Source of the DNA: Saccharothrix syringae
Lineage (GTDB): Bacteria > Actinomycetota > Actinomycetes > Mycobacteriales > Pseudonocardiaceae
NCBI RefSeq assembly: GCF_009498035.1
Contig: NZ_CP034550.1
Location: forward strand, 8,246,001-8,310,000
Reading direction: 5' to 3'
Length of the DNA: 64,000 nt
How positions within the stretch are numbered: the stretch's first letter is position 1; the number at the start of each line of letters is the position of its first letter. The notes under the pieces are model-generated. The model was not told the DNA's origin and ran no database searches. It saw only the letters and a program-made list of their open reading frames with translations. Positions 50,279 to 54,329 of the stretch are shown here, one piece after another. The position numbers were made by a program, and so were the translations under genes.

Positions 50279-51475
50279 GTGACTGACGAAGCCTGGGACG
50301 CCGAGGTCAACCGGGTCGCCGCGCTGAAGGCGCTCCGGTTGCTCGACACGCCGAGTGAGGAGCGGTTCGACCGCATCACCCGTCTGGCGAGGGACGTGCT
50401 GGACGCGCCGATCGCGCTGGTGTCGCTGGTCGACCTGGAGCGTCAGTGGTTCAAGTCGTGCGTCGGGCTCGCCGACCACCAGACCTCGCGCGGGGTGTCG
50501 ATCTGCTCGTACGCCATCCGCGGCGACGACCTGTTCGAGGTGCCGGACCTGCTCGCCGACGAGCGGTTCGCGCACTTCCCGATCGTCACCGACGAGGGCG
50601 CCCGGTCCTACGCCGGGCAGCCGGTGCGGGCGCCGTCCGGGCACCGGGTCGGCACGCTGTGCGTGATCGACCGGCGGGCCAGGCGGCTGTCCGGGGTGGA
50701 GCGGCAGCGGCTGCGCGACCTGGCGGCGTGGGTGGAGCTGGAGTGCGCGGTCGTGCAGTCGGCGCTGGCCGCGCAGGACGCCGAGCAGGCCAAGCGGGAC
50801 TTCACCGCGCTGGTCGGCCACGAGCTGCGCACCCCGCTGACCTCGGTGCACGGGTCGCTGGAGCTGCTGGCGTCCGGCCGGTTCGGGGACCTGCCCGAGC
50901 GGGCGCGGCAGCTGCTGGGGATCGCGGTGGACAACACCGACCGGCTGGTGCGGCTGGCCGACGACGTGCTCGACCTGTCCCGCGTGCGCGACGGCCGGCT
51001 GCACCTGCGGCCGACGGCCGTGGAGCTGGCCGACGTGGTGCGGCAGGCGGTGCACGCGGTGGAGGGCGCGGCCGGGCGCCGGGGCGTGCCGGTGGTGGTG
51101 GACGCCGAACCCGTGCTGGTGCGCGGTGACGCGGACCGGCTCGTGCAGGTGGTGACGAACCTGCTGGCCAACGCGGTGGCGGTGAGCCCGCCCGGCGAGC
51201 CGGTGCGGGTGGCGTGCGGGGCGGCCGGCGAGGTGACCGCGCGGGTGTGCGTGAGCGACCGCGGCGGCGGCGTGCCCGCCGACCAGCTCGACCGGATCTT
51301 CGAGCCGTTCGTGCAGCTGCGCCCCGGCGGCGCCGGCCTGGGCCTGGCGATCACCCGCGGCATCGTGGAGGCGCACGGCGGCTCGGTCGGGGTCCGCTCG
51401 GTGCCCGGCGGGGGCAGCACCTTCACCGCGACCCTGCCCGTGGCCGGGCCGGAGGTGGACCGGCCGTGGTGGTGA
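50279..51475 (+). CDS. GAF-domain sensor histidine kinase
   Basis: A 398-residue soluble kinase. Residues 20-160 form a GAF domain (RLARDVLDAPIALVSLVDLE, FKSCVGLADHQTSRGVSICS) that may bind a small ligand or cofactor. The HisKA box DFTALVGHELRTPLTSVHGS has His181; the ATPase domain shows LVQVVTNLLANAVAVSP, VSDRGGGVP and GGAGLGLAITRGIVEAHGG. GTG 50279 is the start. It converges on an OmpR-type response regulator gene with 6 bp between stops, and is its obvious partner although encoded on the opposite strand. Confidence 0.88.
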   Translation: MTDEAWDAEVNRVAALKALRLLDTPSEERFDRITRLARDVLDAPIALVSLVDLERQWFKSCVGLADHQTSRGVSICSYAIRGDDLFEVPDLLADERFAHFPIVTDEGARSYAGQPVRAPSGHRVGTLCVIDRRARRLSGVERQRLRDLAAWVELECAVVQSALAAQDAEQAKRDFTALVGHELRTPLTSVHGSLELLASGRFGDLPERARQLLGIAVDNTDRLVRLADDVLDLSRVRDGRLHLRPTAVELADVVRQAVHAVEGAAGRRGVPVVVDAEPVLVRGDADRLVQVVTNLLANAVAVSPPGEPVRVACGAAGEVTARVCVSDRGGGVPADQLDRIFEPFVQLRPGGAGLGLAITRGIVEAHGGSVGVRSVPGGGSTFTATLPVAGPEVDRPWW

Positions 51476-51481
51476 CCCGGG

Positions 51482-52216
51482 TCAGGCGAGGTCGGGGTTG
51501 ACCCGGTAGCCGACGCCGCGCACGGTCGCGATCACGCCCCGCGCCCCGGCCGCGGCGAGCTTGCGGCGCAGGTTCGACAGGTGCACGTCGACGGCGTGGT
51601 CGTCGGCCAGCCAGTCCTCGCCCCAGGCGCGGCGGCGCAGCTGCTCGCGGGTGCGCACCTGGCGCGGGTGCTCGACGATCGCGGCCAGCAGCTCGAACTC
51701 GGTCCGCGTGGTGGCCACGCGGTCGCCGTTGACGCGGACCTCGCGGGCGTCGAGGTCGACCTCCAGCGGGCCCACCACCCGCCGGTCGGCGGGTGGCGCG
51801 GCCGGGGCGCCGGCGCGCGGCCGCCGCAGCACGGCGTGCACCCGGGCGACCAGCTCGCGCGGCGAGAACGGCTTGGTCAGGTAGTCGTCGGCGCCGCTGG
51901 CCAGCCCGACGAGCTTGTCCACCTCGTCGGCGCGGGCGGTCAGCATCAGCACGTAGGCGGTGGAGAACCCGCGCAGCCGGCGGCACACCTCCAGCCCGTC
52001 GGGACCGGGGATGTTGAGGTCGAGCACCACCACGTCCGGGTCCCACGCCCGGACCAGCTCCAGCGCCCGGTCGCCGTCCCCGGCGGTCTCGACGTCGAAG
52101 TGCGCGTCGCGCAGCGCCAGCTCGACCACCAGCCGGATCTCGGGGGTGTCCTCGACGACGAGGACCTTGGCGGTGCCCACCGGGTCCAGTGTGGTCGCCG
52201 CTCCGGCTCCCGGCAT
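51482..52216 (-). CDS. OmpR/PhoB-type response regulator
   Basis: A 244-residue regulator. The receiver has acidic residues in VLVVEDTPEIR, phosphoacceptor Asp66 in VVVLDLNIPGPDG and the switch lysine in YLTKPFSPREL. The C-terminal winged helix is TTRTEFELLAAIVEHPRQVR with VHLSNLRRKLAA and TVRGVGYRVNP. ATG 52216 shares one base with the signal peptidase stop (TGATG), so it is the last gene of the secretion operon. Four TGAGG repeats with an 11-bp period upstream of that operon fit the binding mode of this family and suggest autoregulation. Confidence 0.9.
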   Translation of the reverse strand: MPGAGAATTLDPVGTAKVLVVEDTPEIRLVVELALRDAHFDVETAGDGDRALELVRAWDPDVVVLDLNIPGPDGLEVCRRLRGFSTAYVLMLTARADEVDKLVGLASGADDYLTKPFSPRELVARVHAVLRRPRAGAPAAPPADRRVVGPLEVDLDAREVRVNGDRVATTRTEFELLAAIVEHPRQVRTREQLRRRAWGEDWLADDHAVDVHLSNLRRKLAAAGARGVIATVRGVGYRVNPDLA

Positions 52217-52701
52217 CACCGCGCGGGCCGCAGCAGGGCCCGCTTGGCCGCCACCAGCACGGCCAGTCCGATCAGGACGATGAGCGCGACCCGCACCCAC
52301 GCGTGCTGCCCGAGCAGCGCGGCCCGGCCGACGGCCGGCAGGTCACCCACCGCGACGGGGACGGTGTCGGACACGATCCGCAGCGCCTGCGGGTCCTCGG
52401 CGGGGTTCGCGTCGCCCTTGGTGCGCACCACGACCTCGCCCCCGGACGCGTCCCGGGAAATCACCCGGTGGGCGTACCTCTCGCCGGGGGCGTCGGGGCG
52501 CGGCAGCACGACCACGTCGCCGACCGCCACGTCCGCGGTCGGGACGGACCTGGTGACCAGGAGGTCGCCCGCCTCGAAGGACGGCGACATGCTCGGCGAC
52601 AGCACGGGCGCGAACCCCACGTGCAGGACGACGACGAGGACCGCCGCGCCGACCGCGCCCAGCGCGGCGGTGACGAGCAGCAGACCGGACAGCACGCGCA
52701 C
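52216..52701 (-). CDS. SipW-like (ER-type) signal peptidase I
   Basis: A 161-residue membrane protease with two helices (LVTAALGAVGAAVLVVVLHV and VALIVLIGLAVLVAA). The catalytic serine is Ser37 in VLSPSMSPSFEAGDLLV; His78 in GERYAHRVI replaces the lysine of ordinary signal peptidases, as in SipW and eukaryotic SEC11. VVRTKGDANPAEDP is the third box. SipW of Bacillus processes TasA-type proteins. GTG 52701 follows the second secreted protein gene by 11 bp, and its stop overlaps the response regulator start. Confidence 0.87.
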   Translation of the reverse strand: MRVLSGLLLVTAALGAVGAAVLVVVLHVGFAPVLSPSMSPSFEAGDLLVTRSVPTADVAVGDVVVLPRPDAPGERYAHRVISRDASGGEVVVRTKGDANPAEDPQALRIVSDTVPVAVGDLPAVGRAALLGQHAWVRVALIVLIGLAVLVAAKRALLRPAR

Positions 52702-52712
52702 GGCGGGCCCTT

Positions 52713-53225
52713 TCAGGAGTTGGTGGTGGTCGCGGCGCGGACGTGGGCGCGCGAGGTGGAGGCGGACACCGAGACCGACACCCCGACCCCGGCCGGCAGC
52801 GACAGCCGCAGGCCGACCGACGCGCCCGGTGCCACCGGCAGCGCCGCGGTGGCACCGCTGCGCACCGGCACGACCTGGCCCGGGCACGAGCCGTTCTGCC
52901 ACGGCCCGGTGGTGCACGCGTCCAGGGCGACGCCCGACAGGGCGAACCCGTACCCGCTGATCGAGTAGACCTGGCCGGTCAGGGCGGTCGTGCCGGTGTT
53001 GCGGGCGGACAGGTAGACCGCGAAGGGCAGCAGGGCGGTGTAGTCGGCGGTGTACGGCCGGCCGGTCAGCACCGCGCCGTCGGAGCGCACCAGGGTGGCC
53101 GACCAGGTGGCCGTGCCCGCCGCGGTCCGGGCGGTGGCGACCGCGCCGGTGGCCGCGTCGGCCACCCCGGTGGCGAGCAGCGCCGAGAGGACGACGCCGC
53201 CGAGCGCCGCCGTCGTCGTCCTCAT
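52713..53225 (-). CDS. Small secreted protein of the SipW operon, C-terminal ATTTNS
   Basis: A 170-residue exported protein. Residues 1-25 are a signal peptide (TAALGGVVLSALLATGVADA). The mature part is beta-rich with ALTGQVYSISGYGFALSGVA, two cysteines (ACTTGPWQNGSCPG) and an acid-poor tail that ends SRAHVRAATTTNS. No named family is recognised; by position it is a substrate or partner of the SipW-like peptidase. It lies 32 bp after the TasA-like gene and shares with it the last six residues ATTTNS. ATG 53225 starts MRTTTAALG. Confidence 0.72.
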   Translation of the reverse strand: MRTTTAALGGVVLSALLATGVADAATGAVATARTAAGTATWSATLVRSDGAVLTGRPYTADYTALLPFAVYLSARNTGTTALTGQVYSISGYGFALSGVALDACTTGPWQNGSCPGQVVPVRSGATAALPVAPGASVGLRLSLPAGVGVSVSVSASTSRAHVRAATTTNS

Positions 53226-53257: not shown

Positions 53258-53902
53258 TCAGGAGTTGGTGGTGGTGGCGGAGCGCTGGGTCTCGCCGAAG
53301 GTGTAGGTGAGGTTCACCGACTGGCCCTGGACGGTGCCCTGGGGCAGCACCCCGTTGACCGTGGTCTCGTTCTGGTCGGGCAGCTGGACCGACACCTGGA
53401 GGTTCTGCACGTCGCCCGCCGCCATCGCGCCGGCCGGGAGGGCCACCGCCGAGGCCAGGCCGCTCAGCGGCGTGGCGGCCATCAGCACGGCCTTGGTGCC
53501 GCCGCACGCGCCGGTGTCGGGCGCCCACGCGCCGTTCACGCACTCGGTGACGGTCACGCGCAGCGCCTTGCTCGTGGCGCCGTCGGTGATCAGGGCGTTC
53601 GCCCCGGTGGCGGCGACCTGGAGGGTGAGCGCCTGGGCGTCGAGCGTGCCGCCGTTGGTCAGCGCGACGTACCGGTTCACGGTGTCGCCGGGGGCGAGGT
53701 TGGTGATGCTCTGGCCGAAGCCCGCGCCGTTGTCGGCCAGGGTCAGCTTCAGCGTGCCGTTGGCGACCTGCTCGGGCGCGACGTTCGCGGCCGTCGCGGT
53801 GAGCGTCGCCCACACGCCGACCCCCATCGCGACGAGCACGGAGCCGCCGATGGCGGCCAGTGCGGCGGGGCGCCAGGCGGAACGGCGGCGGTTGTGCTGC
53901 AT
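53258..53902 (-). CDS. TasA/camelysin-like secreted protein with SipW-type signal peptide
   Basis: A 214-residue exported protein. The signal region (RRRSAWRPAALAAIGGSVLV then VGVWATLTATAANV) is of the SipW-dependent type, with a basic start and cleavage after TATA. The mature part has GTLKLTLADNGAGFGQSITN, the segment NLAPGDTVNRYVALTNGGTL characteristic of TasA/CalY proteins, and one cysteine pair (TECVNGAWAPDTGACGG). Bacillus relatives build extracellular fibres. It ends ETQRSATTTNS. ATG 53902 has GAGGAG 7 nt upstream. It is the first gene of the operon. Confidence 0.82.
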   Translation of the reverse strand: MQHNRRRSAWRPAALAAIGGSVLVAMGVGVWATLTATAANVAPEQVANGTLKLTLADNGAGFGQSITNLAPGDTVNRYVALTNGGTLDAQALTLQVAATGANALITDGATSKALRVTVTECVNGAWAPDTGACGGTKAVLMAATPLSGLASAVALPAGAMAAGDVQNLQVSVQLPDQNETTVNGVLPQGTVQGQSVNLTYTFGETQRSATTTNS

Positions 53903-53911
53903 TTCGGACTC

Positions 53912-53938
53912 CTCTTGGTTCGTTGCTGGGACCAAGAG
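53912..53938 (-). promoter_or_regulatory. 5' leader hairpin abutting the TasA-like gene RBS
   Basis: CTCTTGGT and ACCAAGAG (8-bp stem, 11-nt loop) form a hairpin in the predicted leader, and its 3' arm runs into the GAGGAG ribosome binding site. Folding could limit ribosome access. Confidence 0.4.
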
Positions 53939-53949
53939 TGGGGTCCGGA

Positions 53950-53987
53950 CCTCAGCGCACCCTCAGCGCTTCCTCAAGCTCACCTCA
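53950..53987 (-). promoter_or_regulatory. Four TGAGG direct repeats, 11-bp period: OmpR-type regulator site
   Basis: CCTCA (TGAGG on the transcribed strand) starts at 53950, 53961, 53972 and 53983, exactly 11 bp apart. On the minus strand the copies read cTTGAGG, cTTGAGG, gCTGAGG, gCTGAGG. Tandem sites with this period are the standard target of OmpR/PhoB regulators, and such a regulator is encoded at the end of the operon this region precedes. Confidence 0.72.
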
Positions 53988-54329
53988 AGGTTCGCCGGCG
54001 CCCCCGCCACCACGCCCGCAGGCCGACGTGGACGGGCAGCGCGCCCTCGTGCACCGGGCACCGGGTAGGGCCGCAGCGGGTCGTCGACGGCGCCGAGCAG
54101 GGGCGGTCACCTGGGTCGCGTTGAGCGGGCAGCGCGTCCTGCTGCACGCGCACCGCCGGGGCCGTTCCCGGCCGTCGCCCGCGTCGGCGCACTCGCCGGC
54201 CGACCGGGACCGGGTGGTCGAGCAACGCCACCCGCAGCGCTTCCACGTCGGTGCCCCGTCGGTGCCCCGCCAGGGCCCGTGGGAGTTCCACGGGCCCCGA
54301 CGGCAGACCTGGAAGCCCTCTTTCCGATC
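53988..54329. other. Intergenic stretch with no confident gene
   Basis: About 340 nt between the ABC permease gene and the secretion operon promoter. Open frames cross it on both strands, one on the minus strand with a cysteine-rich end, but none has a convincing start, ribosome binding site or family resemblance. It could be a decayed gene. Confidence 0.4.

Follow-up and report, generated by a model that had tools for sequence, protein, structure and literature searches.

TasA protein fibres are built in the biofilms of Bacillus. The B. subtilis protein is described as polymerising by donor-strand exchange, and its tapA-sipW-tasA operon as being controlled by SinR (PMC9674648). Two kinds of operator are relevant to the locus considered here. 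The PHO box is reported to consist of two 11-nt direct-repeat units, which a two-component regulator occupies in head-to-tail order (PMC4415409). The operators of SARPs (AfsR/DnrI type), such as the afs box of AfsR, are given as direct repeats with a spacing of 11 or 22 bp, and 8 bp are said to separate the 3' repeat from the -10 element (PMC10936776). A gene set resembling the Bacillus operon is found in the soil actinomycete Saccharothrix syringae (GCF_009498035.1, contig NZ_CP034550.1), within a window of 64,000 nt covering positions 8,246,001-8,310,000 of the forward strand; all coordinates below are those of the window. Upstream of it lie four direct repeats, which are very likely the operator of the response regulator (RR) encoded in the same operon. 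If so, the phosphorylated RR would activate its own operon as its main or only target.

As in Bacillus, one operon encodes a TasA-fold protein (predicted here), another secreted protein and a SipW-like peptidase; here the operon also carries its own two-component regulator, whereas that of Bacillus is controlled by SinR. The first-pass annotation had described this gene order on one strand with tiny gaps, and the open reading frame coordinates bear it out: on the minus strand, 32 bp separate the tasA-like gene from the second gene (sec2), 11 bp separate sec2 from sipW, and sipW overlaps the RR gene by 1 bp. The tasA-like gene (53258..53902) encodes 214 aa with a SipW-type signal sequence. Its product belongs to the camelysin/TasA family (PF12389, Peptidase_M73, 41.4 bits against a cut-off of 22.5), and its predicted jelly-roll fold matches that of TasA best. 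On sequence grounds it is a relative of Bacillus TasA and not TasA itself, because it scores 27.9 bits against the 450 set for the Bacillus equivalog NF046066. The peptidase (52216..52701) is likewise of the ER/archaeal signal peptidase I type (TIGR02228, 71.6 bits against 51.85) and falls below the cut-off of the Bacillus SipW equivalog NF046067 (39.5 against 190). sec2 (52713..53225, 170 aa) had no match in Pfam or NCBIfam at E 0.1; its likeness to TapA is one of operon membership. The tail ATTTNS ends both the tasA-like protein and sec2 (window positions 53258-53284 and 52713-52739) and is found in most members of both families.

The last gene of the operon (51482..52216, minus strand) encodes an OmpR/PhoB-type RR with a receiver domain (PF00072, 98.1 bits) and a winged-helix Trans_reg_C domain (PF00486, 79.0 bits), both above cut-off. 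The closest solved sequences are MtrA, PrrA, RegX3 and BaeR. Among the 25 of 99 NCBIfam families listed, no named equivalog (PhoB, MtrA, CseB and others) reached its cut-off, the top listed scores being 204.7 against 296.2 for PhoB and 199.5 against 300 for MtrA. Two partner genes had been overlooked by the first-pass annotation. One is a histidine kinase gene with GAF, HisKA and HATPase domains assigned by Pfam (50279..51475, plus strand), which converges on the RR gene, the two stops being 6 bp apart. The signal of this kinase is probably internal, since no stretch is hydrophobic enough for a membrane helix: the highest 19-residue hydropathy mean is 1.22 and no membrane segment was predicted. 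All 14 loci that have an RR ortholog show a kinase match of at least 51% identity; the gene is convergent in 13 of them, and in L144 it follows sipW in the same orientation. The other partner is a stand-alone receiver gene that adjoins the RR or kinase gene in each of the 13 RR loci besides that of the window; both such receivers tested (n=2) contained Pfam Response_reg. It is absent from the window locus, where the 6 bp at 51476-51481 are all that lies between the RR and kinase stops. The receiver may, as a guess, serve as a phosphate sink or a second output.

The proposed operator (53950..53989, minus strand) has the core TGAGG at a spacing of 11 bp. Re-reading the plus strand gives CCTCA at 53950, 53961, 53972 and 53983, an exact 11-bp period as first claimed, and the minus strand reads CTTGAGGTGAG CTTGAGGAAGC GCTGAGGGTGC GCTGAGG. 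A search of the window for four TGAGG-N6 units with up to 3 mismatches returned this array alone, with 0 mismatches; shuffled windows gave a mean of 0.01 matches, and 1 shuffle in 100 contained one. Across the organism's own genome (10,929,570 bp, up to 2 mismatches), the array was the only exact match to a three-unit pattern, at two overlapping places; the five remaining matches each carried 2 mismatches, and the reversed control pattern had nine matches. The exact two-unit pattern YTGAGG-N5-YTGAGG occurs at five places, three of them in the array and two inside open reading frames. The array is thus apparently a single site in its genome, whereas the PHO box serves a regulon, and its TGAGG core differs from the CTGTCAT or GTTCACC reported for the PHO box (PMC4415409). 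CTTGAGG-N4 repeats are proposed as the operator motif of this RR clade, for which the searches made found no target.

The array lies at a fixed distance upstream of a -10-like hexamer. Nine representative promoters were taken from fifteen array-bearing loci, after dropping L041 and L042 (nearly identical to L019), L102 to L104 (nearly identical to L017/L101) and L023, a relic. In these, the sixteen GAGG columns carry 1.85 bits of information, the other array columns 1.08 and the flanks 0.61 (Mann-Whitney p 2e-10, with columns treated as independent). Only three columns are invariant outside the array, at +11, +14 and +18 counted from the last GAGG; those at +14 and +18 correspond to the A and the closing T of a hexamer xAnnnT, the positions at which -10 elements vary least. 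Neither base varies in a 14-locus set that includes the relic and excludes L144. In the window the predicted -10 hexamer is CACTCT (53935..53940, minus strand), found at the same array offset, with its A and T kept in 9 of 9 representatives. Transcription is accordingly predicted to start near 53928, with the ATG 26 nt further on. The array would then span about -60 to -22, as the site of an activator might. Tandem direct repeats of about 11 bp upstream of a -10 (itself predicted) have the geometry of an OmpR/PhoB-type operator, and the third unit falls over the predicted -35 position, as the PhoB box lies over -35.

Activation is favoured over repression from this position upstream of the predicted -10. 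That the RR binds the array but represses the operon until a signal releases it is unlikely. The last unit, which spans about -26 to -22, reaches into the predicted promoter core, and a protein bound there could block RNA polymerase. The promoter, however, has no recognisable -35 element, which would fit one that needs an activator, and its spacing to the -10 matches that of PhoB activators. The same spacing is reported for SARP activators (PMC10936776).

Conservation of the array was surveyed upstream of tasA-like homologues. These came from a scan of genome contigs (24 loci), from two family surveys (matches in 8 of 150 genomes at E 1e-3 and in 17 of 390 at E 1e-10) and from one order survey, in which 62 of 397 genomes had a match at E 1e-10; three of the 62 were already known, eight were fetched, and 51 weaker matches lie outside the scored set. 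That set comprises 40 tasA-like loci, excluding the duplicates L043 and L100 and also L150 and L151, whose tasA is unmatched by the window's protein and which have no array. RR orthologs were counted at 55% or more identity over at least 200 residues, and arrays at a score of at least 16 of 20. By these thresholds the array precedes the tasA-like gene in every one of the 14 loci that have an RR ortholog and in none of the 26 that lack one, so that the repeats are conserved in related genomes where the regulator is. Each of the 14 arrays scores higher at period 11 than at 8-10 or 12-14, and 0 of 300 shuffles were as good.

The Fisher value for this co-occurrence, 4e-11, is overstated because the 14 RR loci are related and not independent. 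They are mostly closest relatives, from five genus groups of one family (Actinosynnema/Saccharothrix group, 4; Amycolatopsis, 5; Umezawaea, 2; Prauserella, 1; Actinokineospora, 1), with one locus from another family (L144). The 26 negatives include many distant freshwater metagenome loci and the same-strain or same-bin pairs L039/L040 and L032/L034; several sit on short contigs that may end before an RR gene is reached, and the contig of L098 stops just after tasA. Borderline scores among them are those of the relic (15) and of L099 (14).

A strict three-unit pattern was also sought in the 390 family genomes and occurs in 22; in 13 it immediately precedes a tasA-like gene, and in 9 it lies elsewhere. 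The 13 genomes have the pattern at no other place. The nine others are within the background number, since the reversed control pattern occurs in 15 of 390 (counted by eye from the table). A tasA-like gene is carried by 17 family genomes: the pattern is exact in 13, nearly matched in one (G152, locus L020) and neither in three (G293, G299 and G319). Six of the nine non-tasA pattern genomes (L056, L063, L064, L065, L066 and L076), of which four belong to the Amycolatopsis genus group, carry a TTGAGGCGCTTT-type 11-bp array upstream of a protein family with FAWLVTGP or a similar motif; the one such protein tested had no Pfam match. This second array may be where a SARP or some other OmpR-fold regulator binds.

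Three cases are the most telling. In L144, the locus from another family, the RR gene (59% identity) and tasA are transcribed away from each other, with the array between them; the hexamer CAGTCT stands at the same array offset, and the kinase (matched in two pieces) and receiver follow sipW. In G293 (L097), whose tasA is 59.5% identical, the operon is tasA-sec2-sipW with no RR, the best RR in the genome reaches 45%, and there is no array. In Saccharothrix yanglingensis (L023, G143), the locus retains three repeats and a tasA-like remnant in two reading frames; none of sec2, sipW, RR and kinase is present in these 10 kb, and the closest RR of the genome is again at 45%. This locus was scored among the 26 without an RR and is treated as a relic. 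The repeats and tasA remnant of S. yanglingensis (L023, L043) sit between ABC transporter and PAC2 genes.

Two genomes may depart from the association. G299 is possibly a counter-example: its RR (61% identity) is on a contig other than that of tasA and adjoins genes with SipW-type signal sequences (AFAYW; the region is L142, 1725-5519), with no TGAGG array beside it and none upstream of its tasA, which is at a contig end. In G319, a possible exception to the link between array and RR, an RR of 61% identity shares its contig with a sipW-like gene and has no array nearby; the distant tasA of this genome, which lies at the end of another contig, is preceded by three imperfect repeats (score 14).

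The main rival holds that the array is bound by another OmpR-type DNA-binding protein, for example a SARP encoded elsewhere, with the RR gene as a passenger. With CTGAGGT taken as the unit, the gap from array to -10 is 8 bp, so that 11-bp repeats and promoter together also have SARP geometry, and the TTGAGGCGCTTT-type array precedes an unrelated gene family in six family genomes. The geometry fits PhoB-type regulators and SARPs equally and therefore cannot by itself separate a SARP from the RR. What speaks for the RR is that the array tracks its gene, including in the rearranged L144 and the RR-less G293; the operon's regulator, unlike those of SARP systems, is a full response regulator with a receiver domain, and no SARP was found among the eight window proteins scanned. 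Binding by a SARP or similar protein is unlikely. It is hardly credible that the repeats persist for some other reason, as an RNA element or by common ancestry, with no regulator bound, although these genomes are related and a three-repeat relic is left in S. yanglingensis: the flanks have diverged while the GAGG columns remain, and the array would not be in the RNA because the predicted transcription start lies downstream of it.

Control of the operon by its own RR, as the first-pass annotation had proposed, is thus supported by the co-occurrence of array and RR, by the fixed spacing to the -10 and by L144; that the RR itself binds the repeats is what we infer. In the proposed mechanism, the soluble GAF kinase would phosphorylate the RR on an internal signal, and two RR dimers would bind the four repeats head to tail. 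PhoB recruits RNA polymerase to promoters that have no recognisable -35 element, and the bound RR may act here in the same way. The predicted transcript would comprise the tasA-like gene, sec2, sipW and the RR gene, giving positive autoregulation. The SipW-like peptidase would then cut the TasA-like protein, and perhaps sec2, and the cleaved products would assemble outside the cell, probably as a putative TasA-type fibre.

The circuit would offer a testable case, with one operator and one operon, for a TasA-type system outside Bacillus, and sec2 represents a secreted family that has no Pfam or NCBIfam match and shares a conserved C-terminal tail with the TasA-like protein. More tentatively, and with rather less confidence than the operator itself, Pseudonocardiaceae and some relatives may possess a self-contained TasA-type fibre system, composed of a kinase, an RR with one dedicated operator, usually an extra receiver, a SipW-like peptidase, a TasA-like subunit and sec2 as a new family of co-subunits or caps, in which the common tail RxATTTNS might act as a signal for assembly or joining.
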